Positions 1-61,913 of a DNA stretch of 64,000 nt are shown piece after piece. A program made the translations under genes and the position numbers. The notes beneath the pieces were generated by a model that ran no database searches, was not told where the DNA came from, and worked only from the letters and a program-made list of their open reading frames with translations. The stretch is from contig CM051032.1 of the NCBI GenBank assembly GCA_027627225.1, forward strand, positions 68,421,320 through 68,485,319. Reading direction: 5' to 3'. The stretch's first letter is position 1. Every line of letters begins with the position of its first letter. The stretch comes from Congeria kusceri. Its lineage: Eukaryota; Mollusca; Bivalvia; Myida; Dreissenidae.

Positions 1-124
1 ATCATGGACAACACTTTTCCCAATTTATCGTAGTTTATTTAAACCCAACAGTTATTAGCGTAACTTACTAAGACATTAAATCTAGCATAACTTCAAATCA
101 AACACAACAATCAAAGCAACTTAC

Positions 125-352
125 GACGTAATCCACTTCTTCTGCATTGCTTTTTGACATTTCATTGCCTTCTTCTGTTGAAACTGTAAGCATTTCTTCA
201 TTGCCCTCAATGTGCACGAATACACGAGGAATTAGACCTATAGTTTCATGTTGTGGCCAGATAGGGAGCGGTGGATCTTTCGAAAAGTCATGCTTTGTCT
301 GAAGCTTTCCATCATAAAACAGCTTTGAAGGAAGGTCACATATCTGAGGATG
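125..352 (-). CDS. HELZ2: HELZ2-like exon: helicase domain 2A, motif IV region
   Basis: Starts after a pyrimidine-rich acceptor (AG at 353-354) and ends at a GTAAGT donor (119-124). It encodes HPQICDLPSKLFYDGKL, which completes the QYRMHP motif begun in the previous exon. This motif is characteristic of UPF1-like superfamily 1B helicases. The remaining C-terminal motifs (V, VI) must lie outside the window. Confidence 0.85.
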
Positions 353-9300: not shown

Positions 9301-10442
9301 TTGCTCACTAAGGAATATGTGTATATAGATTGTGAATGACCTTGACACGGAATGCAAACCTTTGGTTTTCCAATTGTTCAGTAAGGAATATGTAAATAAA
9401 GTGTTACCTCGAATCTGATACGGGGATTGCCTTGTGAAGGTCCTGGAAGTAGCTTGGTCCAAAGAGACCGTGAGACGGTCGTGTGTGTTTCCGGTGTCCA
9501 TTCGTCATCAAAACATGTTGCTGTGTACATAATCAGTGATGTGAGCATTTTGGTTGTACAACTCAGTTAAGTTTTTGAAAACAATATGTAAAAATTACCA
9601 TCGTGAATTGATCACAAAATTAAAGATCACATTTTGAACATCACATTTTCTACGCAACATTACTAAATCATAAATTAATATAATTTCATGTTAATGTTAT
9701 AATATAAAATTGTTCAGAAGGCATGGATGACGTACCTAAGTAGAAACATTTTGTAGCCAAAAAGTCCTCCTCTACCTGAAAGACGATTCAAACAATGGCT
9801 TTATTCACAACATACAAGTACTAAAAGTACACATGTACAGTCGTGTGTATAATCCTACGAAAAGAAAAGCTAAATGTCCGGAGATAATTTTATTCCTATC
9901 AGCTAACTTACACAAAGTCGTTGCCTATAGCTGTCTGAAAAATAATGTTATCTACTTTTATCAATAACGAGATTAGTAAAAAAAAAATCAAATAATCGAT
10001 TTCAGAACTAAAAAGATATCGGACGCAGAACTTGAGAAATAATTTCTAGTTGACGAAACCTTGTAGACATTTCAATGTTAGCAATTTGTATTACTTTTTG
10101 TTGTACTGAATACAAAAGAAGTGTTAACTGCACAGCGACACTTTAATAAGCACTTTAATAAATGCAATTGAGTTAATTTCTTAGACTGTATTGAACATCT
10201 TTATATTTACGTTCAGTGTTTAATACTTAACACACCCCCGCAAAGATTGCGCAACATTCTCGAAACCAGTCAGTAAGTTTCTCGTCAGTCTCAACAGATG
10301 CACCACTTTGTAGATATTGATTCATTGCTTCTTCCGCTCGCACCTGCGCCTCACGTGCACGCCTTTTGGCCTCCGAAATACGCCCGCACTGAACGTCGTC
10401 CTGTCCTTTGGCTATAAGATCATCAATCTTTGTTTCGCACAT
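125..10442 (-). CDS. HELZ2: HELZ2-like RNase/helicase gene (multi-exon, 3' end beyond the window)
   Basis: At least 14 exons on the minus strand join with matching phases at GT-AG borders: 10236-10442, 9736-9775, 9408-9520, 8627-8836, 7877-7913, 7606-7715, 6636-6675, 2967-6479, 2751-2839, 2458-2622, 2007-2144, 1318-1694, 479-721 and 125-352. The order is helical/TPR-like N-terminus, basic linker, OB/cold-shock region, RNB ribonuclease domain, linker, then a superfamily 1B (UPF1-type) helicase. This RNB-plus-helicase fusion is known from helicase with zinc finger 2 (HELZ2), a nuclear RNA-binding protein that in mammals is interferon-inducible and has 3'-5' exoribonuclease activity; a role in RNA decay or antiviral response here is inference. 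No zinc-finger exons or N-terminal helicase were seen, so the gene is shorter than vertebrate HELZ2 or begins further upstream. Two lesions (stop at 6226-6228, frameshift at 4042-4093) leave open whether it is a pseudogene, two transcription units or an assembly artefact. Confidence 0.8.
479..721 (-). CDS. HELZ2: HELZ2-like exon: helicase motifs II and III
   Basis: Contains MDEAGMCPEP (motif II, Walker B, DEAG variant typical of UPF1-like enzymes), VVLIGDHMQLRP (motif III) and ends in LEYQYRM at a GTACAA donor. The acceptor AG is at 722-723. Reading frame and phase 0 agree with both neighbouring exons. Catalytic Asp-Glu is present. Confidence 0.88.
1086..1232. repeat. Foldback MITE in HELZ2-like intron
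   Basis: Nearly palindromic 147-bp element: TGTTGGTTTCGG at the left pairs with CCGAAACCAACA at the right, and TCACTCGTGATCAT pairs with ATGATCACTCGTGA further in. It sits in the intron between the exons at 479-721 and 1318-1694. No coding capacity. Confidence 0.7.
1318..1694 (-). CDS. HELZ2: HELZ2-like exon: helicase region between motifs I and II
   Basis: Encodes the segment from WMLKKMGIYTPKFVRVYG through IILCTADVATNHNL, where UPF1-like helicases carry motif Ia and the strand before Walker B. Acceptor taken at 1695-1696 because it gives a continuous alignment-like reading; a second acceptor 32 bp upstream (1727) keeps the same phase and would add 11 residues. The donor is CAG|GTATTA at 1317. 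Confidence 0.8.
2007..2144 (-). CDS. HELZ2: HELZ2-like exon: completes Walker A
   Basis: Begins G|TGKTHTGIKL directly after an acceptor (2145-2146). Together with the preceding exon it forms the P-loop GPPGTGKT, so an intron splits the ATP-binding motif in codon phase 1. It then encodes RVLFCGPSNKSVDLVA, the motif Ia region of UPF1-like helicases. The donor is GTATGT at 2001-2006. Confidence 0.88.
2458..2622 (-). CDS. HELZ2: HELZ2-like exon: Q motif and first half of Walker A
   Basis: Encodes NNKKQQEAIDKAMGSRFTLI followed by QGPPG. The Q-x-x-A-I-x-x-A pattern is the Q motif that precedes the P-loop in superfamily 1 helicases. Ends phase 1 at a GTATTT donor and starts phase 1 after CACAG. Confidence 0.87.
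2751..2839 (-). CDS. HELZ2: HELZ2-like exon: linker before helicase
   Basis: An 89-bp exon with acceptor TTTCAG (2840) and donor GTTTGC (2745-2750). It encodes RTERFIQVLQTSEDCLSKQ and a basic stretch; no catalytic motif. Both borders keep phase with neighbours, which is the main support. Confidence 0.78.
2967..6479 (-). CDS. HELZ2: HELZ2-like large exon: OB/cold-shock and RNB (RNase II) domains, with two lesions
   Basis: The exon starts after CAG (6480-6482) and ends at a perfect GTAAGT donor (2961-2966). From the ATG at 6195 a 717-codon frame holds an OB/cold-shock-like part (about residues 120-175) and the RNB domain (about 305 to near the C-terminus). The RNB signature TIDPPNAKDLDDAI gives the four metal-binding aspartates (D315, D321, D323, D324), and YVHFTSPIRRYIDLVVHRLL is the conserved RNB C-terminal motif, so exoribonuclease activity is plausible. 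Upstream codons (6229-6479) are in the same frame but one TAA at 6226-6228 interrupts them. Downstream, the frame closes at 4042 and reading continues in another frame from about 4093 to 2967, with a beta-rich linker containing YVVATWRKRLYDSKG. Confidence 0.85.
6636..6675 (-). CDS. HELZ2: HELZ2-like 40-bp micro-exon, basic linker
   Basis: A CTATTTTAG acceptor and GTACGT donor bracket 40 bp encoding DIKPLKKNKKCRKR. Joined to 6479 it continues into KARNLSKQSRTAK in frame, giving a lysine/arginine-rich stretch that could be a nuclear localisation signal (inference). Confidence 0.65.
7606..7715 (-). CDS. HELZ2: HELZ2-like N-terminal exon
   Basis: A 110-bp exon with TTTTAG acceptor and AAA|GTTAGT donor, encoding a helical segment with VEATQLLTMSLQAVLNKTEA. 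Phase 1 on entry matches the preceding exon; phase 0 on exit matches 6636-6675. No known motif; amphipathic helix content suggests a TPR-like repeat. Confidence 0.65.
7877..7913 (-). CDS. HELZ2: HELZ2-like 37-bp micro-exon
   Basis: Encodes NRHKEVLELTCT and ends phase 1 at a GTAAGC donor (7871-7876). The acceptor choice (AG at 7914-7915) is the only one that avoids stops and keeps phase 0 with the exon at 8627-8836. Short, so the call rests on phase continuity. Confidence 0.5.
8139..8272. repeat. Foldback MITE in HELZ2-like intron
   Basis: The 5' arm (GACACGAGTTGTCAT, then a TTTATTTAAACGGGTTCAGG stretch) is complementary, with mismatches, to the 3' arm ending ATGACAACGAGTGTC. About 130 bp, arms of roughly 50 bp. 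Different family from the foldback at 1086-1232. Confidence 0.65.
8627..8836 (-). CDS. HELZ2: HELZ2-like N-terminal exon
   Basis: A 70-codon exon with TTGTAG acceptor and CTG|GTAAAT donor, both phase 0. It encodes EILHLFEDLAIIADVAEKRK, then a hydrophobic/charged segment with HRYLFGSYRHGPAIILDN, ending in LLRRARCLFQL. Helical pattern and the LRRARCLFQL ending look like a tetratricopeptide-type helix pair; no database match is claimed. Confidence 0.7.
9108..9396. repeat. 73-bp tandem repeat, 4 copies
   Basis: Units begin AGATTGTGAATGACC at 9108, 9181, 9254 and 9327, exactly 73 bp apart. It lies in the HELZ2-like intron just 3' (on the minus strand) of the exon at 9408-9520. The unit does not contain recognisable exon sequence, unlike the arrays near 55-61 kb. 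Confidence 0.9.
9408..9520 (-). CDS. HELZ2: HELZ2-like N-terminal exon
   Basis: A 113-bp exon, ACACAG acceptor and GAG|GTAACA donor. In the phase set by 9736-9775 it encodes CFDDEWTPETHTTVSRSLW and ends RIRFE, flowing without interruption into EILHLFEDL of the next exon. An alternative phase is also open, but it does not join the next exon in frame. Confidence 0.65.
9736..9775 (-). CDS. HELZ2: HELZ2-like 40-bp micro-exon
   Basis: TTTCAG acceptor and GTACGT donor surround 40 bp encoding VEEDFLATKCFYL plus one base. Phase 0 entry matches the end of the 10236-10442 exon; phase 1 exit matches 9408-9520. Confidence 0.6.
10236..10442 (-). CDS. HELZ2: HELZ2-like most upstream exon recognised
   Basis: A 69-codon exon beginning ATG immediately after an acceptor (TTCTACAG). 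It encodes CETKIDDLIAKGQDD, the helix SEAKRRAREAQVRAEEAMNQ and DWFRECCAIFAG, ending at GTGTGT. Without splicing, the frame would stop three codons later. The ATG may be the true start (with an untranslated exon upstream) or an internal methionine. About 80 bp upstream (10510-10525) is a second TTCTACAG-ATG-GATGAAACAAA that resembles this exon start. Confidence 0.65.
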
Positions 10443-10839
10443 CTGTAGAATACCAATTTTAAAAAAAACGCAGTTTAAGAATAAAACTAAACATATTTTA
10501 GACGTCACAAAGTTTTGTTTCATCCATCTGTAGAATTACAAACATAACGCTTTTAGCTTTGAATTAAGCTTACTTTGTATGCAGTAGATATTTTTTTCGC
10601 ATCAAAATTAAAATCTTAGTTTTATCATGGTACCTAATTACTTATCTATTGATCAGTAAGTTCTCAACAGCACCCGTGTTTTCGCAAAACATGTCTTCCT
10701 TACCAAAATGTCCTTAAACTCACGGTTTTAATTTGTTTAAATTTAAAACTGCTCACACAACGAGATTAATTCAACGAGTTAAACATCGATTAAAGTTTAA
10801 AATAAATATGTAAATATTTTCTAGAAATAGATGTTAAGT

Positions 10840-24690: not shown

Positions 24691-24881
24691 AATTGAGGGG
24701 CACAGTAAAGGGGGTATTGTTTGTAAAAAGTTCAATTGAGGGGCACAGTAAAGGGGGTATTGTTTGTAACGAGTTCAATTGAGGGGCACAGTAAAGGGGG
24801 TATTGTTTGTAACAAGTTCAATTGAGGGGCACAGTAAAGGGGGTATTGTTTGTAACAAGTTCAATTGAGGGGCACAGTAAA
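24691..24881. repeat. 43-bp minisatellite, interrupted by a LINE
   Basis: AATTGAGGGGCACAGTAAAG units start at 24691, 24734, 24777, 24820 and 24863, exactly 43 bp apart. The fifth copy is broken after CACAGTAAA; its remainder (AGTAAAGGGGGTATTGTTTG) resumes at 27239. Confidence 0.95.
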
Positions 24882-24946
24882 ACTCAAATAATTTCTGGAA
24901 ACACATTAGAAAATTTACTAACAAAACTAATGAGATTTCATCGGAT

Positions 24947-25978
24947 GTGTCTTTACATTACTTCGTGAACCATTTTAAAAATATTTCTAATTCGATTGAA
25001 ATTTCGGGTTTCAATACTGAAAATGTTAATGAGTTTGATGTAAATATCGATGAATTGGATATGGATTTTACGGTCGATGAAGTGGAAAAAACAATACTAT
25101 CTCTCAAGAAAAATAAAAGTGGCGATCTTGATGGAAATGTTTGTGACTTTATTATAGATGCAAAACATTTTATTGCACCTTATCTTGTGGTTATATTTAA
25201 CTACATTTTTACTAATGGTAGCTATCCTGACGCATGGGCCAAGGGTGTTATTGTCCCTATTCACAAAAAGGGCGATACTAAAAATCCTTCGAATTATCGG
25301 GGTATAACTTTAATAAATATTTCAGCTAAATTGTTTTCTCTATTGATCAGAAATCGAATTAATAAATGGTGTGAAAATAACAAACAATTTAATGACTCAC
25401 AATTTGGCTTCAGGGACAATCATAGTACAACGGACTGCATTTTCATCTTACATTTAATTATCCAGAAAGTTTTAGCATCTAATAACAAATTGTTCTGTGC
25501 TTTTATAGATTATGAAAAGGCCTTCGATACTGTAAATCACGATATACTATGGATAAAACTGGTAAAATCAGGCCTGAGCTGTAAGATTATAAACATTATC
25601 AAATCAATCTATTCAAACATAAAAGCATGTGTCCGATCTAGCTCGGACATGAGCTTTTCGGAATTTTTCGACATATCAATTGGCCTAAAACAAGGTGAGC
25701 CACTCTCACCCCTTTTATTTATACTTTTTATTAATGATATCACTGATTATATTGATATTGTAAATCTATCGGACAAAGATATTGAACAGTTGTCATTGTA
25801 TCTTCTGCTATTTGCTGACGACATCGCACTGTTTACCACTAATCCGAAAAGTCTTCAAGCACAACTTAATAGTATATCGCAATACTCTACATCTTGTGGT
25901 TTAAAAATTAATGTTAACAAAACTAAAGTCTGTATTTTGAAAAGCGTAAGAGTCGCCATAATTATCAGTGGATTATAA
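24947..25978 (+). CDS. LINE reverse transcriptase (fingers and palm)
   Basis: 343 codons with RT blocks PIHKKGDTKNPSNYRGITL, SQFGFRDNHSTTDCIF, FIDYEKAFDTVNHDI, GLKQGEPLSPLLFILFINDI and the catalytic LLFADDIALF (FADD box). All three catalytic Asp residues are present. Starts at an internal Met; the endonuclease domain that should precede it is missing through 5' truncation. The frame closes at 25978 and resumes in another frame about 30-40 bases later. Confidence 0.9.
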   Translation: MSLHYFVNHFKNISNSIEISGFNTENVNEFDVNIDELDMDFTVDEVEKTILSLKKNKSGDLDGNVCDFIIDAKHFIAPYLVVIFNYIFTNGSYPDAWAKGVIVPIHKKGDTKNPSNYRGITLINISAKLFSLLIRNRINKWCENNKQFNDSQFGFRDNHSTTDCIFILHLIIQKVLASNNKLFCAFIDYEKAFDTVNHDILWIKLVKSGLSCKIINIIKSIYSNIKACVRSSSDMSFSEFFDISIGLKQGEPLSPLLFILFINDITDYIDIVNLSDKDIEQLSLYLLLFADDIALFTTNPKSLQAQLNSISQYSTSCGLKINVNKTKVCILKSVRVAIIISGL

Positions 25979-26016
25979 GTGAACAAATCATCGAAATTGT
26001 TGACAGTTTTTGTTAC

Positions 26017-26973
26017 TTGGGTGTAAAATTATATTATACAGGTAACATGCGATATGCCGTCAAAGCTCTCTCTGATCATGCCCTGAAAGGATACCATAGT
26101 CTTCTTTGTTTATTTAATAATGTTAAAATGGATGTTAAGACTAAATTATATCTATTTGATTGTATGATTTTACCTATTCTACTGTACGGTTCAGAAATAT
26201 GGGGAATATATAACTCTAAAGAAATTGATACCTTACATTTTAAATTTTTGAAAATAATTCTTGGTGTAAAACAATCAACATCAAATATGGCTGTATTAGG
26301 TGAAACTGGCAGATATCCGTTATCAGTGTTGTGTAAAGAAAGAGCTCTTAAATTTTATGTAAAATTAATGAATAATAAAGACTCTATTATGTTTAGAGTG
26401 CTTGTAAATCAACGGAATCTAAATGCCTTTTGCTGGTTTAAAGCATGCAAATCCTACTTTGAAAGTCTGGGAAATGGTGATCTATTTGAAAATCCTAATG
26501 TCAACATTAATTCTGCTACAGTGAAACAACGGATCCGTGACCAGTTCCAACAAACATGGTTCGAATCCTTATCAAATATGCCTAAATTATTTTACTACTG
26601 TAAATTTAAAAGTAATTTTGAATATGAAGACTATTTAGATTATGTATCACATGAAAAATCAAGAATATCCCTTACAAGACTACATCTGAGCTCACATAAT
26701 TTAGAAATTGAAACTGGCAGATATACTAATGTAGATCGAAGTAATAGAGTGTGTAGATTATGTTCAGCAAACACTGTTGAAAGTGAATACCATTTCTTGT
26801 TATGTTGTACTGCTTTTACTAACATTAGGAAAAAATATCTAGTACATACTTCCTGGCCGTCTATAATTATGTTTATTAATTTCATGTCATCGAAGTCTAA
26901 ACGAAAAATCAGACACATTGCTAAATATTGTCATAATGCTATGATTTTACGTGATACATTGCTTGCTGTGTGA
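26017..26973 (+). CDS. LINE reverse transcriptase thumb and C-terminal part
   Basis: Continues the RT after a frameshift; the frame is open upstream of this Met, with VDSFCYLGVKL as the usual post-palm block. It then has MILPILLYGSEIWG and a C-terminal zinc-knuckle-like CRLCSANTVESEYHFLLCC. This Cys/His motif is common at the end of LINE ORF2 proteins. Decayed copy. Confidence 0.88.
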   Translation: MGVKLYYTGNMRYAVKALSDHALKGYHSLLCLFNNVKMDVKTKLYLFDCMILPILLYGSEIWGIYNSKEIDTLHFKFLKIILGVKQSTSNMAVLGETGRYPLSVLCKERALKFYVKLMNNKDSIMFRVLVNQRNLNAFCWFKACKSYFESLGNGDLFENPNVNINSATVKQRIRDQFQQTWFESLSNMPKLFYYCKFKSNFEYEDYLDYVSHEKSRISLTRLHLSSHNLEIETGRYTNVDRSNRVCRLCSANTVESEYHFLLCCTAFTNIRKKYLVHTSWPSIIMFINFMSSKSKRKIRHIAKYCHNAMILRDTLLAV

Positions 26974-41874: not shown

Positions 41875-42015
41875 TGGTGTCAGAAGTTAAATTCTACAAA
41901 ATGGATTAAAAGTTAAATCAGTGTTAATATCTGGATAAACAGTAAATGTGACACAATTTTTGGGGATATAATTTTGATAAATATCCATTTAATTTTGATA
42001 AATATCCATAAAACG

Positions 42016-43243
42016 ATGGATACACAGTCTAACCCAAAAATGGACTGGGATTCCAAGGACTTGCCAAGTGCATTCAAGCGATTTAAAGAACAATCAGTTC
42101 ATGTTCGGAGGACCCTTAGAGAAGAAAACTGAGGAAGCCAAGTGCAACTACCTTATGCTCTGGGTCGGCGAGAAAGGACGACAAATTTTCTCCACCTGGA
42201 CAGTCAGCGAAGAAGCACGACAACAGCTCATAGCTTACTACAACGGTTTCGAGGCATATTGTGCACCGAAAGTGAACCACATTTACTCCAGATACAAATT
42301 TAAATCACGAATTCAACACGACGGCGAATCATTTGAAGATTTTGTTACAGAACTCAAATGTTTAATAAAGGACTGTGGTTATCCGGATGTGATAACGGAA
42401 GAGATGATCCGGGACCACATTGTGTTCGCCATTCATTCCGCCAAAATCAGAGAGAAGCTGATCAACGAGGGATCAAACCTGACACTTGACAAGTGCATGG
42501 ACATTTGTCGCACACATGAGGTGAGCCAATCGCAGCTCAAGGACATAAGCGGCCATGCCCAATCCGTCAACGCTCTGAGGCAACCTATGCAATCTACACG
42601 ACAGCAGGCTCGTTCAGGCAGACCATTTACAGTGACCGCCTCAGCACCACCAGGACACATCAGACTATGCAACAATTATGGAACCAGCCATTCCAGAGAC
42701 TTAGTGTGCCCCGCACAAGGAAAAACTTGTTTGTACTGTTTCAAACTAAACCATTTTGCTAAAGTGTGTAAGAAACAACTGCAGGACACCCGCAGGAATG
42801 TCAATGAGGTAAACACTACCGATCTTGATTTCAACTCACACTTTGATGAAACTTACTACATAAACACAGTACAGCATGATGAAATTACAAATCAAGCGTT
42901 TGTTAAATTAACAATTTGCAACACTTCAATCCAAATGAAAATTGACACAGGCGCGCAGGTTAACGTCCTGCCAAGGTCCATATTTAAGTCGTTAGGTAAA
43001 ACTGGCCCATTGCGTTCAACACAGAAACGCTTGACTGCATACAATAATCAGCCACTTAAGGTAGATGGTTTCATTAACCTGCCTTGTACACATAAGAGTC
43101 AAGCAGTCAATGAGGATTTCTATGTTGTTGATACAAGTTCAAGCCCCATTCTAGGACTACAAACATGTCTGAAACTTAACTTGATTGAGTTAGTTTTTTC
43201 TACTAGCTGCAACACATTCCTGACTGGAAGAAGTTATCAGTAG
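42016..43243 (+). CDS. Ty3/gypsy gag-protease region (frameshifted near its start)
   Basis: An ATG at 42016 opens a frame that breaks at about 42085-42105; the main frame then runs to a TAG at 43243. Capsid-like sequence comes first, then a zinc knuckle pair: the first is degenerate (a Tyr replaces one Cys), the second is a proper C-x2-C-x4-H-x4-C (CLYCFKLNHFAKVC). The retropepsin active site reads IDTGAQVNVLP (DTGA, catalytic Asp present), about residue 290. Confidence 0.88.
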
Positions 43244-43286
43244 ATACACAGACGTATTTACAGGGGTAGGTAAACTACCAGGTGAA

Positions 43287-44789
43287 TTGAAATTCACTTG
43301 CGTGACAATGTCACACCTTGTACACCATCCACGAAAAGTTCCTGTCACAATAAGAGACAAACTTAAGGCAGAACTAGACAGAATGGAACAAAATGGCATC
43401 ATATGCAAAGTCACAACACCCACCGACTGGGTAAACAGCTTGGTCACGGTTGAGAAACCTAACGGTTCATTAAGGGTATGCCTCGACCCGAAGGATCTAA
43501 ATAACGCTATCAAGAGACCGCACTACCCAAACAAAACATTAGATGACATATTGCCAGAGTTGACAAATGCGACAGTTTTCTCAAAACTTGACGCTCGTAG
43601 CGGTTACCGGTCTATACAATTGACAAAAAAATCCTCTTACCTGACAACTTTCAACAGTTGCTTTGCTAGATACAGATTCCTCAGGTTACCATATGGGTTA
43701 TGTAACGCAAATGACCTGTTCAGTACAAAAATGGAGCAATGTCTAGAGAACCTCCCTGGTGTACAGACTATTGTTGATAACGTAATTGTGTATGGAAAGG
43801 ACAGGACTGAACATGACGCAAATCTCCTCAGACGTACGGAGAGATGCCGAGAAATGGGCATTAGGTTAAACCCAGACAAGACAGAAATAGGTAAAACTGA
43901 AATCCCTTTCTTTGGTCACTTAATCACAGCCCAACACTTAAAAATAGACCCAGCAAAGGTCAAGGCCATAGAGCAAATGTCAGCCCCCACCTCTAGGGCA
44001 GAATTGCAGACCATATTAGACATGGTTACGTACTTACAGAGGTTTGTACCCCAACTCTCTGAAATCACTGCACCCTTACGACAGCTCCTGTCTAAGGACG
44101 TTGAATTTAGCTGGGATTAACCCCAAGAGGAAGCCTTTCAGAAGATTAAAGGCATCATCTGTCAGAGCACTGGTAAGGTACTCGCTTATTCTGATCCAAA
44201 TAAAGAAATTACACTCCAGGTAGATGCGTCAAAGTTTGGGCTAGGAGCCGTACTTCTACAAGATGGGAAGCCAGTGTGTTTTGCCTCAAAACCATTAACC
44301 CCAGCAGAGGTCAATTATGCACAAATCACAAAGGAATTATATGCAATTCTATTTGTATTCACAAAATTCCACCAATATGTTTATGGTAAACATATTACAT
44401 GTCAGACAGACCACAAACCACTCCAAACCGTATGGAAAAAAGGCCTGCACTCTGCACCCCCTCGTTTGCAGCGTATTCTGCTGAACCTGCAAAAATATGA
44501 CATAGATTTGGTCTTTGTCCCAGGAAAAGAAATTCCCTTAGCAGACACCCTGTCACGCAATTTCCTTCCTGACACATACCCGGAAATTGCAGATGGTCTA
44601 GATTCACAAGTTCGTATTGTCATGTCAAATTTGCCAATTAGTGATCAAAAGATGGAACTTGTACGACAGCTTCTAGTTCAGACACTCAATTACAACTTCT
44701 TTCGAAAGTTATCCTTGATGGATGGCTTAATGACCGGTCAGATTGCCCTAAACAATTGCTTGATTTTTGGAATTACAGAGATGAATTGA
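43287..44789 (+). CDS. Ty3/gypsy reverse transcriptase and RNase H, with nonsense codon
   Basis: The frame is open from about 43212; RT blocks include TDWVNSLVTVEKPNGSLRVC and FSKLDARSGYRSIQL. The catalytic box reads IVDNVIVYG, where the second Asp of the usual V/M-D-D is Asn, so polymerase activity should be lost. A TAA at 44118-44120 interrupts the frame between RT and RNase H; the same frame continues with RNase H motifs LQVDASKFGLGAVL, AQITKELYAIL and CQTDHKPLQ. A further frame break follows at about 44700-44760. Confidence 0.88.
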
Positions 44790-44873
44790 CTGTGATTGAT
44801 GGAATTTTCCTGCAAGGCTCTAGAATATTAATTCCCAGTGAAATCAGACCTCTCATGCTCGAGAAACTCACGA

Positions 44874-46074
44874 ATCACACCTAGGTGTCGAAAAATGCAC
44901 AGAGCGTGCAAGACAAATAATGTTTTGGCCCAGTATGACAGTAGACATAAAGACAAAAGTACTGGAATGTCCAATTTGCATAGAACATAGGTGCTCAAAT
45001 GCAAAAGAGCCCCTGCAACATAGTAAAGTACCTGACAGACCATGGCAAATTTGTGCCACAGATTTATTTCACTGGGACAATAAGGACTATATACTGTTAG
45101 TTGACGCCTATAGCAAATACTTTGAAGTAGTTACACTTCAGAACACAAAGTCAAGCACTGTCATTGACAAACTGAAAAGCTTTTTCAGCCGACATGGTAT
45201 TCCGGAAATTGTATTCTCAGACAATGGCCCCTGCTACAGTGCAGAAAGTTTTGCACAGTTTGTAAAACAGTATGACTTCCAGCATATGACCTCCTCCCCA
45301 GGTCATGCATCGGGTAATGGGTTGGCTGAAGTCACCGTCAAAACAATCAAATCATTATTCACAAAATCCAAACAGGCTGGGAAAGACCCCTACCTTGTTC
45401 TCGTGGAATATCGTAATTCACCCCTACAGTGCAGGAAGTCCCCAGCACAACTCTTAATGAGCAGACAGCTGAGGTCTACAATGCCATTAACCTCCCAGCA
45501 ACTTGCCTCTCAGGTACCGGATACAAAGGTCATTAAAGATAAAATGCACCAGTCAATGCACCAGTCAACGCAAAGGTCAAAAGTGTATTTTGACAAATCA
45601 GCAAAGCCTCTCAAGCCTTTACACATTGGAGAAGGTGTACGGATTAAAAATGATAAATGCTGGTTACCTGCTATTGTGCAGCAGAAAGTCAATGACAGAT
45701 CATACATTGTTAAAACACAGGATGGTGGAATATACAGATGTAACCGACAACACCTGCTAAAATCAAATGAAGCTCCCTTTGAAGAAACTGACTCACATGT
45801 TCAGTTTACTTCAGAAAAAACGCATGTAACAAACAGACCAATTACACCACCTGTAATCACGCCTGCAACAACAGTCTCACCTACACCAATCATGACCCCA
45901 GGTCAGTCATGTCAGAGCAATGATAACAAAGCAGTATCGAGTTCTAGTACCACAGTACCGCAGACACCTAAACAAACATCACCAGACAGGAACCAATCGC
46001 TCATGTCAGAACATGACACATATAGAACAAGATCAGGTCGGTATGTTAAACAACCTCAGAGACTTACATTTTAA
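44874..46074 (+). CDS. Ty3/gypsy integrase
   Basis: Opens after a frame break at about 44870 with the end of the HHCC zinc domain (LECPIC). The DDE core has ATDLFHW, VFSDNGPCYS and NGLAEVTVKTIK, supplying all three acidic residues. It ends with an SH3-like C-terminal domain around VRIKNDKCWLPAIVQQKV and a Ser/Thr/Pro-rich tail closing at QPQRLTF. Confidence 0.9.
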
Positions 46075-51591: not shown

Positions 51592-51903
51592 TCATGATGC
51601 GACTTGAATGGAACTCGATGATTTCCTTTTCATAGCACGAGCCTCTTTAGCCGCCGCCCTTCGCTCATTTTTCTGCAAATTGTCCCAGGCGGTTTTACGT
51701 ATGGCTTCACCCGTCATCTGAGTCTGAAGAAACTCGGTAATGTTTTTAAGGGCAACGTCCATGCTGGATTGTAACTGGGTGACTTTCTCGCTGTTCTGTA
51801 TGGACATGTCCTCCATGCGAGAGAGCTCTGCGGAGTTGTACAGGCCGCGGTACTTGTAGTACTCCATCATAGCACCATGCATGCGGATCTGTAGGGCTTG
51901 TAA
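51592..51903 (-). CDS. Coiled-coil gene, last exon
   Basis: 104 codons including the stop, after a TTCCAG acceptor. Begins LQALQIRMHGAMMEYYKYRG, continues with a helical region (NSEKVTQLQSSMDVALKNI) and ends in a lysine- and serine-rich tail. The stop codon TGA is followed by AT-rich presumably untranslated sequence. Confidence 0.85.
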   Translation of the reverse strand, partial: LQALQIRMHGAMMEYYKYRGLYNSAELSRMEDMSIQNSEKVTQLQSSMDVALKNITEFLQTQMTGEAIRKTAWDNLQKNERRAAAKEARAMKRKSSSSIQVAS

Positions 51904-54900
51904 CTGGAATGGGAAACAGTCAACAGTTCAGTAGATGGTTATAGATGTAACACCCAAAAACTTCAGCTTTAAAGCTGATCTATACATTAGATAGCATACT
52001 ATAACTCTATATTGGCCTGACACTTCTGGCCCCATGTTCACAAAACAAGTTAAGCCTGATTTTCAGGTTTCAAATGAACTTCAGCCAGATCTTTTAGGAT
52101 CAGGCTCAAAAATGGCGTTCATTAAAAATCTGGATCAATTTTAATTGTTGATCAAATATATATTATACATGATTATGAACTTCTCTTAGCATATGTTTCT
52201 ATCTGATGTGAAGATTTTAATCAAATTGTAACAAAAATGTTTATTTAATCTAGAACAAAAGTTATTTCAAAAATAAAATATTTGTCTGATTCGGCTCAGT
52301 TGAGCTGGAAGATCAATTTGCTTGCTATACATAATACATGCACATGACATCCCAAAATATGAAATGCCTTGATTCTCATGCGGACTGCACAGGCTGATCC
52401 GGGACGACACTTTACGCACGTGCATTAAGGCCGGTTTTCCCACGACGCGCCTCATTTGTAATTTACCTCTCTCACATCCTTTATCGCGTTTTCCAGTTTA
52501 ACGCGATCCTCAAAGTTATTCATATATTTGTCCTTGACCTGCATTTGGTCGTTCTGCAGCGTGCGGTACTGTGAGGCCAGCTCCGTGTTTGTCTGAATGC
52601 TTTTTGTTTTCTGTGCCTGTCAAATAATTAAAGCAAATACAAATTACATGTTTAATCATTTTGAAAAATTACAAACCCTGATAAAGGGTGGTGTTCATAT
52701 AATTAATGTAACTGACGTAAAATGAAAAATGCAAACACTTTGAAAAAGTGAGTACATTATTAACAATATCAATTTCTGCAAAATAATGTAGGTACCATTT
52801 ATTCATTTATTGTTACCATAATATTTTTAGGCACTTCAAGTTAGAAACTAGAGCAAATCACAAAAGGTGAATAATACCCCCACATATTGCTTTGACACGG
52901 ATAAAGAGGTTTGCAGTTGTTGTCTTTAGACACATAATTATTTTTTGACTGGCATAAGAGCAAAAATGGGCTTGAAATGTACACAGAAGAGCAGACATCC
53001 TCTTTATGAGGTCAAGCACTTTGTTCCAAGTTATAGCAGAATCCCTCTATGTAAGTACCGTAGTACGGACATACGGATCAACACACGCGATTCCCATATA
53101 GCCCCCACTTTTTCAAAAAGTGGGGGTATAATAGCTGTCTCCTCTGCAGACTGATGCCAAAAATAGATCAAATAAAGAGGTACCAGCATTATATTATTTA
53201 TTCTATTATACCGATTAAACTGTAACGCCTATTAAATTATTACATTTATGAATTATTTCCCATTACTTCATATTCGAAAGCAATGAACTGATCGTGAATG
53301 AAAGAGAATACTGATATAGTATAATAGTATAGTAGTTTAAATTCAAGATAAATATAAAAAAAATATCATTATGAGTATAAGAAGTTTACAACATATAGTA
53401 ACCTAAACAAATCCATTCTCAACAAAGTCATGTATGTTACATTACACATAAGATTTTTCTAACATTCCTACTGGCGCAACGATGACTTTTTCTGAATTCG
53501 ACATTGTAATAAACGACACAATTATTTTAATTTTTTTGGCAGGGTGCTGTGAAAAATATACCCCTGTGACATAACTTTAGGTATATAGACATTAAATACA
53601 CAAAGCTGTCACGAGCAGTGTAGTAAAAAGACAAATAACGCATATATGATAAACAATCAACACAATTGCAACATCAAATGTAAGGAGTTTTCACCTCCAG
53701 CTCTCGTAGTTTTGTTTTCCGCTCTTCCATCAACTTCCGATGGTTGGCCTGATTATCACGCACACGAGCTGGAAAATATACATACTGGTACCGAATATAG
53801 GCTGTTGTCATGGAAAAAATTTTTTTTTAAGTACTTTAAGATACAAGTGGGTATACGTCTTCGAGGATTAAACAATATGACACATACAAATTGGTACAGT
53901 GTAATTTTATTGTCAGTAACACCAAGAGATGTTTATTACACATTATTTCTGCAATGGACAATGGAAGATTTATATATGTTTTAGTGTCGAATGCCTTGAA
54001 GTTAGGAGAAAATACAAATGTAATACTAGTACACAATTAGGTCAAACAATATGTACACGCGATAAAAGAAAGTATCAAGGTAAAAGACGGAATAAATTTC
54101 AGTAGGAAAACATTACGATGTGGAAGGCATTTAAAAGCTTATTTGTGGGATAAGCTGGAGAGAAACCCTTATTAACATAGTATGGTCCTTTATTGAAGGT
54201 GAGTGACCAGTTGTCCATACTGAGGGACAGTCTGATTTTTATAGATTTATTTCAGGTCTCTTTCCTTACCCACTAACAAAACCCCCTCTTATATAACATA
54301 AAAAACATCAACATCGACAAAAACTCATTTTTTATCAAAAATGCAAATATATATTTTATGTCAGTACAGACCCATTTATTCTAAAGCCACGACTACATTC
54401 GGTTCTGAATGAGAAAGATAGAACTGCGGGTGCGCCTAAATTGATCTGACTTGTCTAGACGATGTATATACAAGTGTATAATAAATCGCTTCGCAGCGCA
54501 GTATTATTCTAGTTTTAAATATCTCTTAATACACATTTCTGAACATAAGTTATTCTTATAATTATTATTATATTATTTAAGAAATATACTGACATTGTTA
54601 GAATCAATGGATCGTTTTACAATATACTAAAAAAATTTGTACAAAATCGTAGTTCCACTTTAACAGCACAATATAAACAACAAAAAAACAAACACAAAAC
54701 ATACATCTCGAGGAGAAGAAACAAAGATAAGGCGGGATAGAGGAAATACAATGAGATGGAGTTCCTGCAAGGCAATGAAATGCAAGAACAGGAATCTTAG
54801 CTTACTGTTAACACTGTTAAACTGGAGCTTTAAGTCAAAGCTACGCTTACTGTTTACACTGTTAAACTGGAGTTTTAAGTCAAAGCTAAACTTACTGTTT

Positions 54901-57900
54901 ACACTGTTAAACTGGAGCTTTAAGTCAAAGCTACACTTACTGTTTACACTGTTAAACTGGAGTTTTAAGTCAACTTAGCTACACTTCTGTTTACATTGTT
55001 AAACTAGAGTTTCAAGTCAAAGCTACACTTACTATTTACACTGTTAAACTGGAGTTTTAAGTCAAAGCTACACTTACTGTTTACACTGTTAAACTGGAGT
55101 TTTAAGTCAAAGCTACACTTACTGTTTACACTGTTAAACTGGAGTTTTAAGTCATCTTCCACCTTCTGGGCTGCCTGCAGCTGTAGATCCAGTTCTGCCA
55201 ACTGGTCACTGAAACAGGACCATACAACTTATGTTAGTTATACATTATAATTTTGCCATATGCCCTTAGATCTCCCAAAAACAAAGAATCCTACAAACAT
55301 TTCTAAGTCCAGATGGCAATCTTGATCACCAAAACCTAATTATTTGTTCATTGGCCAATATCCAACCTTTCCCGAAAATTTTGTGTAAATATTTTCACAA
55401 CATTATACAATGAAAAGAAACAAACAGACAGACAAACCAACACTGGCAAAAACATGACCTCCTTGGTGGAGGTAAAAATGGAACTTGCTTAAGTATACAA
55501 CAGAATTACAAAACTTGATAAACAGTATGTTATGAAATAATTACGAACCAAATATTATCACTCTAAACAGAAAAAAAACATGACTGAAAATGACTGTAAC
55601 ATTTATAAAGAGCACCAAACCTTCATAACCAAATTTTAGGGTAAAAAAGTGTGAGTTATACACAGTCTTTTATGGTACAAATGCTACCTGCGAGTTGGAA
55701 TAGCAGTCTCGGTGCATGCAAGTACATAATTATAAACGCTACCTGACTGTTGTAATAGTGGTCTCCGTGCTGGCAAGTACATATAAACCCTACCTGAGAG
55801 TTGTAATAGTGGTCTCCGTGCTGGCAAGTACATATAAACCCTACCTGAGAGTTGTAATAGCAGTCTCCGTGCTGGCAAGTACATATAAACCCTACCTGAG
55901 AGTTGTAATAGCAGTCTCCGTGCTGGCAAGTACATATAAACCCTACCTGAGAGTTGTAATAGCAGTCTCCGTGCTGGCAAGTACATATAAACCCTACCTG
56001 AGAGTTGTAATAGCAGTCTCTGTGCTGGCAAGTACATATAAACCCTACCTGAGAGTTGTAATAGCAGTCTCCGTACTAGCAAGTACATATAAACCCTACC
56101 TGAGAGTTGTAATAGCGGTCTCCGTGCTGGCAAGTACATATAAACCCTACCTGAGAGTTGTAATAGTGGTCTCCGTGCTGGCAAGTACATATAAACCCTA
56201 CCTGAGAGTTGTAACAGCAGTCTCCGTACTGGCAATTACATATAAACCCTACCTGAGAGTTGTAATAGTGGTCTCCGTACTAGCAAGTACATATAAACCC
56301 TACCTGAGAGTTGTAATAGTGGTCTCCATGCTGGCAAGTACATATAAACCCTACCTGAGAGTTGTAATAGTGGCCTCCGTGCTGGCAAGTACATATAAAC
56401 CCTACCTGAGAGTTGTAATGGTGGTCTCCATGCTGGCAAGTACATATAAATCCTACCTGAGAGTTGTAATAGTGGTCTCCATGCTGGCAAGTACATATAA
56501 ATCCTACCTGAGAGTTGTAATAGTGGTCTCCATGCTGGCAAGTACATATAAACCCTACCTGAGAGTTGTAACAGCAGTCTCCGTGCTGGCAAATACATAT
56601 AAACCCTACCTGAGAGTTGTAATAGTGGTCTCCGTACTAGCAAGTACATATAAACCCTACCTGAGAGTTGTAATAGTGGTCTCCATGCTGGCAAGTACAT
56701 ATAAACCCTACCTGAGAGTTGTAATAGTGGCCTCCGTGCTGGCAAGTACATATAAACCCTACCTGAGAGTTGTAATAGTGGTCTCCATGCTGGCAAGTAC
56801 ATATAAACCCTACCTGAGAGTTGTAATAGTGGTCTCCGTGCTGGCAAGTACATATAAACCCTATCTGAGAGTTGTAACAGCAGTCTCCGTGCTGGCAAGT
56901 ACATATAAACCCTACCTGAGAGTTGTAATAGTGGTGTCCGTACTAGCAAGTACATATAAACCCTACATGAGAGTTGTAATAGCAGTCTTCGTGCTGGCAA
57001 GTACATATAAACCCTACCTGAGAGTTGTAATAGCAGTCTCCATGCTGGCAAGTACATATAAACCCTACCTGAGAGTTGTAATAGCAGTCTCCATGCTGGC
57101 AAGTACATATAAACCCTACCTGAGAGTTGTAATAGCAGTCTCCATGCTGGCAAGTACATATAAACCCTACCTGAGAGTTGTAATAGCAGTATCCATGCTG
57201 GCAAGTACATATAAACCCTACCTGAGAGTTGTAATAGTGGTCTCCGTGCTGGCAAGTACATATAAACCCTACCTGAGAGTTGTAACAGCAGTCTCCGTGC
57301 TGGCAAGTACATATAAACCCTACCTGAGAGTTGTAATAGTGGTCTCCATGCTGGCAAGTACATATAAACCCTACCTGAGAGTTGTAACAGCAGTCTCCGT
57401 GCTGGCAAGTACATATAAACCCTACCTGAGAGTTGTAATAGTGGTCTCCGTGCTGGCAAGTACATATAAACCCTATCTGAGAGTTGTAATAGTGGTCTCC
57501 GTGCTGGCAAGTACATATAAACCCTACCTGTAATAGTGGTCTCCGTGCTGGCAAGTACATATAAACCCTACCTGAGAGTTGTAATAGCAGTCTCCATGCT
57601 GGCAAGTACATATAAACCCTACCTGAGAGTTGTAATAGTGTAATACTTAACCATGCTGGCAAGTACATATAAAGCCTACCTGAGAGTTGTAATAGCAGTC
57701 TCCGTTCTGGCAAGTACATATAAACCCTATCTGAGGGTTGTAATAGTGGTCTCCGTGCTGGCAAGTACATATAAACCCTACCTGAGAGTTGTAACAGCAG
57801 TCTCTGTGCTGGCAAGTACATATAAACCCTACCTGAGAGTTGTAATAGCAGTCTCCGTGCTGGCAAGTACATATAAACCCTACCTGAGAGTTGTAATAGC

Positions 57901-60900
57901 AGTCTCCGTACTAACAAGTACATATAAACCCTACCTGACAGTTGTAATAGCAGTCTCCGTACTAGCAAGTACATATAAACCATACCTGAGAGTTGTAATA
58001 GCAGTCTCCGTGCTAGCAAGTACATATAAACCCTACCTGAGAGTTGTAATAGTGGCCTCCGTGCTGGCAAGTAAATATAAACCCTACCTGAGAGTTGTAA
58101 TAGCAGTCTCCGTGCTAGCAAGTACATATAAACCCTACCTGAGAGTTGTAATAGTGGTCTCCATGCTGGCAAGTACATATAAACCCTACCTGAGAGTTGT
58201 AATAGCAGTCTCCGTGCTGGCAAGAAGGCGGTCCATCATGCCCTGGGACTTGTCCATGTCGCCCATTTGGTTTCTCATTATTTCCGACTTCCAATCAATG
58301 TGGTCCAGGCGCTTGTTCACGTTCAGCAAGTCACCCTGAAGTAGATACGCGGAACATCATTGCAGATGACATCGAGATAGATTTCATTCAACGCCATTTG
58401 GGCAAGTAAAATTTCAGTATGATAATGTGTTCACATTTAACAAGTTAGACAGATGCATGGATCATAATAACAGATGTGATAGATCCATGGATCATTATAA
58501 CAAATGACATCAAAAAAGATTTGCTATACTGCCATTTGGACAAATAAAATCTCAGAATGATATTCCGTTGACATTTAACAAGACACCCTGTGATAGATAG
58601 ATGGAACATAATACCAAAGAACATTGCACAGGATTTGTTAGTTTACCCTTTGAATAACTAAAATTTCAGTACGATTTTCGATTCACATTCAACAAATCAC
58701 CCTGCGATAGACATGTAGAATATCAAAACAAATGACACAGAAAAGAATTTGATACACTTCCATTTGGGCAACAAAAATGTCAGTTTGACAAGTGGTTCAC
58801 ATTTAACAAGTCACTCTGCAATACATACATGGAACATCATAACAAATGACTAAGAAAAGGACTTAGTAGGTAGTCTGCCATTTAGGCACCAAAAATTGTA
58901 ATTATGACAAGTCTCTCTGTCATAGATACGTGGAACATTTTAACAAATGACATGGTGAAAGTCGCCCTGCGATATGTAAAGGGAACAACATAACAATCAT
59001 GTGACACTGAAACAGATTTGGTACACTTCCATTTGGGCAACTAATTTCTCAGCATGATAATCAGTTTGCATTAACCAAGTGACCCTGTGATAGAGATGTG
59101 GGGACATCACAGCAAATGACATGAAAATAGATATGTTCGTCTGCTATATGGGCAACAAAAATGTCAATATGATAACCATGTAAAGTGACATCTCAATGTT
59201 CCACAATTGAATTTCAGTAAAATTTGCAACTAAATCTCAGCATGATAAGCAAGATTAGTAACAACCGGAGAATCCACTGTTTTATTTAATTAACATTCTA
59301 GGCAAGCTAAGATGTTTCTTGAGCCCTTAATCATCTCCTAACCCTAACTCAGGCCCTAACTCATACTCTAGTATTCCTTATAACCTATAACAAAACTTCC
59401 AACCCTAACTCTCAATAACTACTCCTTAAAACATCTGATACAGTATATTAAGGTCAATTTTGATTCTAAGAACTTTTTTTCTTACGACCAACTTTCCTCA
59501 GTCAAGTCAAGCAGCTATCAATCAGATTATAAGACCAAATCTCTACCCAAACTTAACCAACTGCTGATTCTTAACCTCTGAAGCAGAGCATTTGTCAATT
59601 GTATGCCTAAAACTTAGTGTCCAACTCTGAGAGCCTATTAGCATTAGTCTTTACTCTTATACCAGAAAACTTGAGCAACTATCAATCAGCAGGGTCCATA
59701 TTAACAAAACCATTCTTAGACTTAAGACCTAATAAAGAATATTCTTGAAACTGGTTTGTTCCAAAAAGGTCTTTATTTTGAAACTAACTTGGTATTTACT
59801 AACGCTAATTATAGCACATGTATTTAGAACAATTTGTTAATGACATACATGACATCGGCACAAGCACATTTGCAAACACCCAAGTATTATTTTTGAGTCT
59901 AAGTCTATTCTTTATTCTTAAGTCTAAGTCTATTATTTATTCTTAAGTCTAAGTCTATTCTTTATTCTTAAGTCTAAGTCTATTCTTTATTCTTAAGTCT
60001 AAGTCTATTCTTTATTATTAAGTATAAGTCTATTCTTTATTATTAAGTCTAAGTCTATTCTTTATTCTTAAGTCTAAGTCTATTCTTTATTGTTGAGTCT
60101 AAGTCTATTATTTATTCTTAAGTCGAAGTCTATTCTTTATTATTAAGTCTAAGTCTATTCTTTATTCTTAAGTCTAAGTCTATTCTTTATTCTTAAGTCT
60201 AAGAATTAGTTGGCGATTACGGGCCCGGGTTACGAGGAGAGTAAACATACCGTGAGTTGGCGATTACGGGCCCGGGTTACGAGGAGTATGAACATACCGT
60301 GAATTAGCGATTACAGACCCGGGTTACGAGGAGAGTGAACATACCGTGAGTTGGCGATTACAGGCCCGGGTTACAAGGAGAGTGAACATACCGTGAGTTG
60401 GCAATTACAGGCCCGGGTTACGAGGAGAGTGAACATACCGTGAATTGGCGATTACAGGCCCGGGTTACAAGGAGTGTGAACATACCGGGAGTTGGCGATT
60501 ACAGGCCCGGGTTACGAGGAGAGTGAACATACCGCGAGTTGGCGATTACGGGCCCGGGTTACGAGGAGAGTGAACATACCGCGAGTTGGCGATTACGGGC
60601 CCGGGTTACGAGGAGTGTGAACATACCGCGAGTTGGCGATTACGGGCCCTGGTTACGAGGAGAGTGAACATACCGCGAGTTGGCGATTACAGGCCCGGGT
60701 TACGAGGAGAGTGAACATACCGCGAGTTGGCGATTACAGGCCCGGGTTACGAGGAGTGTGAACATGCCGTGAGTTGGCGATTACAGGCCCAGGTTATGAG
60801 GAGAGTGAACATACCGTGAGTTGGCGATTACAGGCCCGGGTTACGAGGAGTGTAAACATACCGTGAGTTGGCGATTACAGGCCCAGGTTACGAGGAGTGT

Positions 60901-61913
60901 GAACATACCGCGAGTTGGTGATTACAGGCCCGGGTTACGAGGAGAGTGAACATACCGCGAGTTGGCGATTACAGGCCCGGGTTAGGAGGAGAGTGAACAT
61001 ACCGTGAGTTGGCGATTACAGGCCCGGGTTACGAGGAGTGTGAACATACCGTGAGTTGGCGATTACGGGCCCTGGTTACGAGGAGAGTGAACATACCGTG
61101 AGTTGGCGATTACAGGCCCGGGTTACGAGGAGAGTGAACATACCGTGAGTTGTTTATGGTGGGGTTCCAGTTTCGTCTTCCGTTCATCGAACTTCTTTTC
61201 CGACTCTGCCATCTGTTTAATGGTCTCATCCCTCCTTGCAGACAAATCACGCTTTTTCTGTTCAAAGACAATTTAAAATAATGGTAATTTACGTACGACT
61301 CTATCACAGAAATTCTATTAAGAATCGAGATCTAATTTCATTGTAAATAAATGTATTATTCTCTTTGAAGAAGCAATCCTAATAACATTAATTTTGACGA
61401 CATACTATAATGTGCAACATTTAGTTTAAACATATTAAGTTAGACAAACAAGAACGTTTTGACATGTCATTATTTATATGTAACATATAGTACACACTAG
61501 ATTATAAAACAAGCATCACTAATGTTTATACTAATTATATATTAAAAATATTTAATATTTAATATACAACATTTAAAATGCAAAAATACGACAGAATGGT
61601 TGCGATAATTGCAACAAGTTTATTGAAGAACATGTCACTAGCTACAAAATGCGTATGTTTTAGTTTATGCTGTTTGTGAGCTTAAAAATCGAATATTGGA
61701 CAATGTTCTAGTACGTATACACCACCTCAGCCCCCTCAACGTTAGCCTAAGCAACCTTTCTGATGAAAAGATTAAAATTTACCCCCAAAAATAACAAATT
61801 AAAATATCAGAAACAGTTACCCTGGTATTACTCTCTTTTGCGGACCTCAGTTTCTCGACCTTTTCTTTGATGTTGCTCACAGCTGTGACCACTTCGTCTG
61901 CCACTTTGGCCGC
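51592..61913 (-). CDS. Coiled-coil protein gene, seven exons, with splice-site minisatellites
   Basis: Exons 61821-61913, 61144-61257, 58190-58335, 55123-55208, 53695-53768, 52467-52616 and 51592-51903 have canonical GT-AG borders and join in consistent phases, giving about 324 residues with the true C-terminus; the start lies further upstream. The product is almost wholly charged heptad-like helix (for example KEKVEKLRSAKESNTR, RKLMEERKTKLRELE), ending in a basic, serine-rich tail (RAMKRKSSSSIQVAS). No signal peptide or membrane segment in the visible part. I do not recognise the family. Introns after exons 61144, 58190 and 55123 begin inside minisatellites that repeat the exon's own donor site. 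Confidence 0.82.
52375..52456. repeat. Half copy of palindromic dreissenid-type repeat
   Basis: GCGGACTGCACAGGCTGATC, then GGGACGACACTTTACGCACG and ending TTTCCCACGACGCGCCTCAT. Sits next to the donor of the exon at 52467. Confidence 0.85.
52467..52616 (-). CDS. Coiled-coil gene exon
   Basis: 50 codons, TTGACAG acceptor, GAG|GTAAAT donor. Encodes AQKTKSIQTNTELASQYRTL and a second charged helix ending ENAIKDVRE. A fragment of the dreissenid-type palindromic repeat (52375-52456) lies only 10 bp into the following intron. Confidence 0.85.
53102..53126. repeat. Perfect 12-bp hairpin
   Basis: CCCCCACTTTTT and AAAAAGTGGGGG around a single C. The preceding CGATTCCCATATAG context recurs, from memory, in other bivalve repeats. 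Confidence 0.8.
53695..53768 (-). CDS. Coiled-coil gene exon
   Basis: 74 bp, TTTCCAG acceptor, GAG|GTGAAA donor. Encodes RVRDNQANHRKLMEERKTKL then RELE. Enters in phase 1, as required by the exon at 55123-55208. Confidence 0.82.
54801..55145. repeat. 45-bp minisatellite built on an exon 3' border
   Basis: Eight units start CTTACTGTTTACACTG or close variants at 54801, 54846, 54891, 54936, about 54984, 55028, 55073 and 55118. On the gene strand each holds 31 bp of exon end, GTAAGT and the next intron bases. The fifth copy has small indels that break the 15-residue periodic frame. The first-copy donor at 55117-55122 is the one that fits the gene model. Confidence 0.93.
55123..55208 (-). CDS. 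Coiled-coil gene exon bordering the 45-bp array
   Basis: TTTCAG acceptor and AACA|GTAAGT donor. Encodes DQLAELDLQLQAAQKVED then DLKLQFNSVN. Its last 31 bp plus the donor and 14 intron bases form the unit of the array at 54801-55145. Unspliced, the frame stays open for three more units, so use of a later donor would add 15 residues each. Confidence 0.85.
55684..58224. repeat. 51-bp minisatellite, about 50 copies, built on an exon 3' border
   Basis: The unit on the plus strand runs ACATATAAACCCTACCTGAG then AGTTGTAATAG(T/C)(G/A)GTCTCC and (A/G)TGCTGGCAAGT. On the gene strand this is the last 35 bp of the exon at 58190-58335, the CAG|GTAGGG donor and 16 intron bases. Divergence is low: mostly alternation at three or four sites. 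Because 51 is a multiple of three, long open frames run through it on both strands, but they are not genes. Confidence 0.97.
58190..58335 (-). CDS. Coiled-coil gene exon bordering the 51-bp array
   Basis: TACTTCAG acceptor and CTCAG|GTAGGG donor. Encodes GDLLNVNKRLDHIDWKSEIM then RNQMGDMDKSQGMMDRLLAS and TETAITTL. The last 35 bp with the donor and 16 intron bases is the unit repeated about 50 times at 55684-58224. In the exon frame the donor itself supplies a stop (TAG), so failure to splice ends translation at once. Confidence 0.85.
58336..59110. repeat. Degenerate array of about 115-bp units repeating an exon 5' border
   Basis: Blocks resembling TTCACATTTAACAAGTCACC then CTGNGATAGA recur near 58437, 58570, 58687, 58800, 58900, 58955 and 59072. 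On the gene strand they read as an acceptor-like CGCAG followed by GGTGACTTGTTGAATGTGAA, the start of the exon at 58190-58335 (GDLLNVN). Other shared blocks are GGAACATCATAACAAATGAC and CCATTTGGGCAA. Much older than the donor-side array. Confidence 0.75.
59898..60203. repeat. 25-bp minisatellite, about 12 copies
   Basis: Unit AAGTCTAAGTCTATTCTTTA then TTCTT, with occasional single-base variants. Ends directly against the 47-bp array. Confidence 0.93.
60226..61150. repeat. 47-bp minisatellite, about 20 copies, built on an exon 3' border
   Basis: The unit is GAGTTGGCGATTACAGGCCC then GGGTTACGAGGAGAGTGAAC and ATACCGT. On the gene strand every unit carries CAACTCACG|GTATGT (or a CGCG variant), the last 9 bp and donor of the exon at 61144-61257, plus 38 intron bases. 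Units also hold the palindrome GGCCCGGGTT-like core. Confidence 0.95.
61144..61257 (-). CDS. Coiled-coil gene exon bordering the 47-bp array
   Basis: 38 codons, GAACAG acceptor and CTCACG|GTATGT donor. Encodes KKRDLSARRDETIKQMAESE and a further charged helix ending HKQLT. The last 9 bp of the exon with the donor recur in each unit of the 60226-61150 array. Confidence 0.83.
61821..61913 (-). CDS. Coiled-coil gene, most upstream exon recognised
   Basis: 31 codons after TTCTGCAG, ending AGG|GTAACT. Encodes AAKVADEVVTAVSNIKEKVE and KLRSAKESNTR. No start codon here; upstream exons were not recognised in 61914-64000. Confidence 0.78.

Follow-up and report, generated by a model that had tools for sequence, protein, structure and literature searches.

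Tandem arrays spanning exon–intron borders in a coiled-coil gene of the bivalve Congeria kusceri, with similar structures at sampled myosin exons

The 64,000-nucleotide stretch of the Congeria kusceri genome considered here (assembly GCA_027627225.1, contig CM051032.1, positions 68,421,320 to 68,485,319 of the forward strand; hereafter "the window", whose numbering we use throughout) carries on its minus strand the 3′ part of a gene for a coiled-coil protein, three exons of which run straight into tandem arrays built from the exon end and its own splice donor. These arrays had been pointed out in an original prediction made by a model from the sequence alone. The in-window part of the gene comprises seven exons with a combined length of 975 nt, which read as 324 open codons and a stop, and all six of the in-window introns have GT-AG ends. 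In the direction of transcription, the exons are e1 (61821-61913), with no array at either border; e2 (61144-61257), which ends CTCACG/gtatgt; e3 (58190-58335), which has border-spanning arrays on both sides; e4 (55123-55208), which ends AAACA/gtaagt; and e5 (53695-53768), e6 (52467-52616) and the last exon, e7 (51592-51903, with the stop codon), which are free of arrays.

The exon borders were placed by reading frame and GT-AG signals, with a coding score as further evidence. The assigned frame is the sole stop-free one in six of the seven exons, and the codon-usage score of each of the seven exceeds that of all 2000 random intron windows of equal length. For the joined exons, the open frame is outscored by another (125.3 vs 152.9), so the codon score speaks for exon-like composition and not for the frame. 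We therefore take frame plus splice signals as the basis on which the exon ends are very likely real borders; those of e2, e3 and e4 fall exactly where they had been predicted. The protein itself gave little to work with: no homologues were found at E ≤ 0.001, the only Pfam matches (CENP-F_leu_zip and DUF4200) were below the cut-off, and a comparison with solved structures returned a single match with an E value of 0.88. An Rfam search of the window gave no match. The missing homologue and the better-scoring second frame could be taken to mean that the borders are misassigned or that the arrays are artefacts of assembly, but we think this very improbable, given the open frame maintained over seven GT-AG exons, its uniqueness in most of them, the scores relative to intron sequence, and the like structure at the borders of conserved myosin exons described below. 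Assembler-made copies, moreover, would not be expected to look like those found here, which in all three donor arrays differ by scattered substitutions.

The first donor array, A1 (60208-61152), consists of 20 units of 47 bp, each containing the last 9 bases of e2, the GTATGT donor and 32 more intron bases. The second, A2 (55684-58224), has 50 units of 51 bp, containing the last 34-35 bases of e3, a GTAGGG donor and the start of the intron, and the third, A3 (54801-55154), has 8 units of 45 bp, containing the last 31 bases of e4, a GTAAGT donor and the intron start. All three lie on the minus strand, as does an intronic 25-bp array adjoining A1 (59887-60203) that spans no border. With Tandem Repeats Finder scores of 611-4131, the arrays themselves certainly exceed chance. 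The donor GT is retained in 73 of the 78 copies (A1 19/20, A2 47/50, A3 7/8), and the donor 9-mer is the same as that of the real donor in 11 of 20, 40 of 50 and 4 of 8 copies, respectively. The mean pairwise identity of copies is 0.93 in each array, and the copy on the exon side equals the consensus in all three. The most diverged copy is the last one in A2 (11 changes) and in A3 (9 changes); in A1 the divergence at the edge is weak, with five changes in copy 19 and two in copy 20. Runs of at least three identical units in succession are absent from A2. We also considered that A2 might be a dispersed repeat and rejected the idea: among the matches listed for its core in the genome, all 45 fall within the array itself (55768-58192). 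The anatomy, copy numbers and unit lengths thus agree with the original prediction, as does the proportion of donors affected (three of the six in the window); its exon contributions of 9 and 31 bases were right, whereas the 35 given for the middle array should read 34-35. Its further proposals, that the three arrays arose separately by one rule and that the pre-mRNA carries many tandem donors, are likewise supported, although for the latter the 75-80 suggested becomes more than 70.

An array on the acceptor side of e3 (58315-59177, minus strand), overlooked in the original inventory of that exon, follows the mirror image of the donor-array rule: its unit is the end of the intron plus the first 21 bases of e3, repeated in degenerate form seven times, at about 114 bp per copy, in addition to the real border, and the homology stops 21 bases into the exon. 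The CAG is retained in six of the seven copies. Mean pairwise identity is 0.64, from which we take this array to be probably older than the donor arrays. Further exons of the gene lie upstream of the window; these were called with a simple score-based finder and are less certain, the start of one (u6) being rough. Among them, the exon at 83289-83136 (locus L010; coordinates continue the numbering of the window) passes into an array of 24 units of 129 bp, here called u5, whose unit includes 51 exon bases; the same donor is present in all 24 copies, and its 9-mer is identical to that of the real donor in every one. Another upstream exon, ending near 83933, is followed by one degenerate donor copy (z 11), a two-copy case. 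An acceptor match at exon u3 was not counted, as the aligned part of the query is entirely intronic. With the upstream exons included, a sensitive search covering 16 exons finds 6 of their 31 borders duplicated, five in the form of arrays; a stricter search, of the kind applied to the myosin genes, finds 4 of 31, as it fails to pick up the e3 acceptor array and the two-copy donor.

Border-spanning copies also occur at conserved exons of myosin genes. From 82 myosin-head matches in the 1.55-Gb genome, we took 46 stretches with 48 matches, in one batch of 35 stretches with stop-free matches and a second of 11, ten of which have internal stops; the sample leaves aside three copies located on contig C65 as well as the rest of the matches. 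Of the 48 sampled exons, 6 show tandem copies that span a border, four at donors and two at acceptors. The donor cases have units of 45-47 bp (L037), 65 bp (L046), 88-90 bp (L068) and 150 bp in two copies (L075), and the acceptor cases units of 36 bp in 8.6 copies (L051) and 113 bp in two copies (L073). In all six, the conserved reading extends to the innermost site (the first donor or the last acceptor, that is, the site giving the shortest exon), with the exact border inferred from GT or AG. Three cases come from the first batch (3/35) and three from the second (3/11); the first is biased against duplicated exon ends and the second favours them, since a match continuing into a copy picks up stops. 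Taking two borders per exon, which is assumed rather than proven for each, the rate is 6 in about 96, with a 95% interval of 2-13%. Border-spanning copies appear to be abundant in this genome. Two further candidates were set aside: at L056 a 77-bp array starts at the myosin donor and takes in no more than a few bases of the exon, and at L044 a 35-bp array in the intron upstream of the exon does not reach it. Separately, contigs C15 and C65 carry myosin matches with identical scores and look like two haplotypes or a duplicated cluster; such copies could reveal differences in array length.

As the most probable explanation, and one we hold with reasonable confidence, we propose that these are minisatellites of the type called mirages in lancelets, that is, products of ordinary tandem-repeat growth tolerated at borders as the innermost splice site stays in use. 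A tandem duplication straddling an exon–intron border would copy the splice site into the intron; if the innermost site were still used, the copies would be silent intron and could go on to expand through unequal exchange or slippage, with selection on the protein keeping the exon-side copy constant. The consequences of using other donors fit this proposal for A1, A2 and u5, where none of the tested donors beyond the innermost leaves the reading frame open. Splicing from copies 2, 3 or 4 would bring in an in-frame stop in both A1 and A2, at residue 75 or 118 counted along the in-window protein; in u5, a stop precedes the second donor and copies 2-4 give stops; and at the myosin exons L046 and L068, a stop likewise comes before the second donor. 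Our inferences are that splicing of the RNA uses the innermost site, that this is due to exon definition, and that the arrays grow neutrally.

The same data bear on what the extra donors could do. A role as backup donors, suggested earlier as a buffer against donor mutations, is contradicted by the stops for A1, A2 and u5; only A3 offers two usable extra donors. Variation in the nine donor columns is about equal to that at the other positions of the unit (the probability of as few or fewer changes is 0.58, 0.81 and 0.87), with few changes overall and low power for A3, and we see no signal of selection on decoy donors in the donor columns of A1-A3. The stops beyond the first donor and the unconserved donor columns together argue against backup donors and lend no support to the suggestion that multiple donors have been selected for. 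The stops may nonetheless be compatible with use of inner donors followed by decay of the transcript. On such an account, decoy donors would give rise to stop-containing transcripts (or, in A3, to 15-residue repeats), and array length would tune expression through nonsense-mediated decay. Decoy donors that are mostly intact in A1-A3, and invariant in u5, are what this would lead one to expect, as are the stops that inner donors give, but we consider it improbable: the donor columns are no more conserved than their surroundings, the presence of similar arrays in unrelated genes suggests no gene-specific role, and lancelet mirages are reported to be harmless.

Growth by ordinary repeat processes, with tolerance at the border, also has to be weighed against the frequency with which tandem repeats arise elsewhere in this genome, which is high: tandem repeats make up 12% of the sequence in a sample of 18 random 10-kb stretches, with 61 arrays over the 180 kb, and random points are covered by tandem repeats in 10-11% of cases, more often than borders are. 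From these stretches, the probability that a seed overlaps a given border is 0.0265, or 0.0098 when only units of 20-135 bp are counted. Several observations do not sit easily with our explanation. The next donors of A3 stay in frame, adding 15 or 30 residues, and so does the next donor of myosin L037 (15 residues). At the density of the random stretches, the 6 myosin borders in 96 compare with 2.54 expected (P 0.04), and arrays of at least three units number 4 against 0.90 expected (P 0.013); within the myosin stretches, units of up to 100 bp are found on borders 4 times against 1.26 expected (P 0.02). Uniform seeding alone does not predict these excesses. They would be accounted for if exon edges were hot spots of tandem duplication (for example through transcription-linked breaks or chromatin), with the coiled-coil gene as an extreme case. 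Random seeding in the introns of that gene gives P 4e-5 for at least four of five arrays spanning borders and P 2e-4 for at least three donor-side arrays, both in a post hoc test, as the gene was picked for its arrays. We regard hot spots as possible, though unlikely. When all units within the myosin stretches are counted, 6 of 14 arrays lie on borders against 4.55 expected (P 0.27), and the breakpoints lie 9-53 bases inside the exons with no single motif. Nor is the coiled-coil gene clearly exceptional in the number of borders affected, although its copy numbers are high: one method applied to both gives 4 of 31 borders there and 6 of 96 in the myosins (P 0.26), and the coiled-coil gene keeps 1 of 28 once the borders of A1-A3 are removed. 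Border enrichment over the genome's high array density is accordingly possible but unproven. The special local mechanism that had been suggested is not needed, since 6 in about 96 myosin borders are affected too and tandem repeats occupy 12% of random sequence; uniform seeding plus tolerance at the innermost site explains most of the pattern.

At the other end of the window, a HELZ2-like gene occupies the minus strand at 1-10442, with an open reading frame (ORF) at 4042-6225 that contains RNB and OB_HELZ2 domains and two others (98-415 and 416-724) with AAA helicase domains; the exon calls are rough. This gene had been described as lacking arrays of the border-spanning kind, which holds, with two qualifications. 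A 73-bp array of 3.9 copies (9108-9393) starts inside the intron, 14 bases past the exon that ends at 9408, and does not span the donor, and the acceptor at 10442 (10442-10540) has one weak upstream look-alike of the intron end plus exon start, which scores 31 against a shuffle maximum of 26 and is one of 19 borders tested in this gene. Elsewhere on the plus strand, a 43-bp array (4.4 copies) immediately precedes an ORF that encodes a reverse-transcriptase domain (24691-26973), and a row of ORFs at 42002-46074 resembles what we take to be a gypsy-type retroelement.

The kind of array described here is already known, mainly from lancelets, where mirages have been reported in Adh3, the globins BflGb6 and BflGb9 and troponin C, with similar repeats in PGBD5 (PMC3087553, PMC3902484). 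There, the units span borders at both donors and acceptors, measure 10-160 bp and in many copies keep AG/GT, the edge of the array escapes homogenisation, and regular splicing is reported not to be disturbed (PMC3087553, PMC3902484). The Congeria arrays resemble them in several ways: border-spanning units in A1-A3, the e3 acceptor array, u5 and the six myosin cases; both types of border (both at e3, with acceptors also at L051 and L073); splice signals that are kept (GT in 73/78 donor copies and in 24/24 of u5, CAG in 6/7); and a homogenised interior with a diverged edge in A2 and A3, and weakly in A1. Mirages are further marked by length polymorphism and somatic instability; the array lengths given here come from one assembly. 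The differences are the number of copies, up to 50 here as opposed to 3 and 6 in two haplotypes of BflGb6 (PMC3087553), the mollusc host, the exon with arrays on both sides, and the availability of a sampled rate per border. In a weak, mostly title-level search of the open literature, we recognised no report of border-spanning arrays in molluscs. What appears to be new here is their abundance in this genome and the exon flanked by arrays on both sides.

Human parallels exist as well. The human CBS gene has a 31-bp variable number of tandem repeats (VNTR) of 16-21 copies, c.1444_1467+7(16_21) (PMC2630376), whose unit, by our own reading of that notation, is the last 24 exon bases plus the first 7 intron bases. 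This is the same layout as in the arrays here, at one human locus; what is available of that paper describes no recurrence along the gene. In human segmental-duplication genes, boundary tandem repeats are reported to be able to yield new introns and alternative transcripts, with 27 intron modifications between recent paralogues (PMC2812944), whereas recent duplication is not documented for the genes with long arrays here. The seeding of new introns, raised as a possibility in the original prediction, had already been proposed for lancelet mirages (PMC3087553). Copied splice sites are likewise the raw material in intron gain by AGGT duplication, and no new intron is shown in our arrays. Intron gain by tandem duplication of AGGT is also said to feature in a paper on potato RdRp, among others.

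If the sampled rate holds, several per cent of exon borders in C. kusceri carry border-spanning copies, choosing among many near-identical neighbouring splice sites is routine in this animal, and the choice of the innermost site, together with its failure rate, would be testable in an unmodified organism. The border copies would also be raw material for intron gain by AG/GT duplication, an old mechanism that is rarely caught. A bolder claim, which we consider doubtful, is that the genome holds thousands of mirages whose formation a genuine mechanism promotes at exon edges, and that splicing must routinely choose the innermost among as many as 50 near-identical sites. Were that true, they would amount to a large natural experiment on exon definition ("the shortest exon wins") and to a standing source of raw material for new introns and exons.

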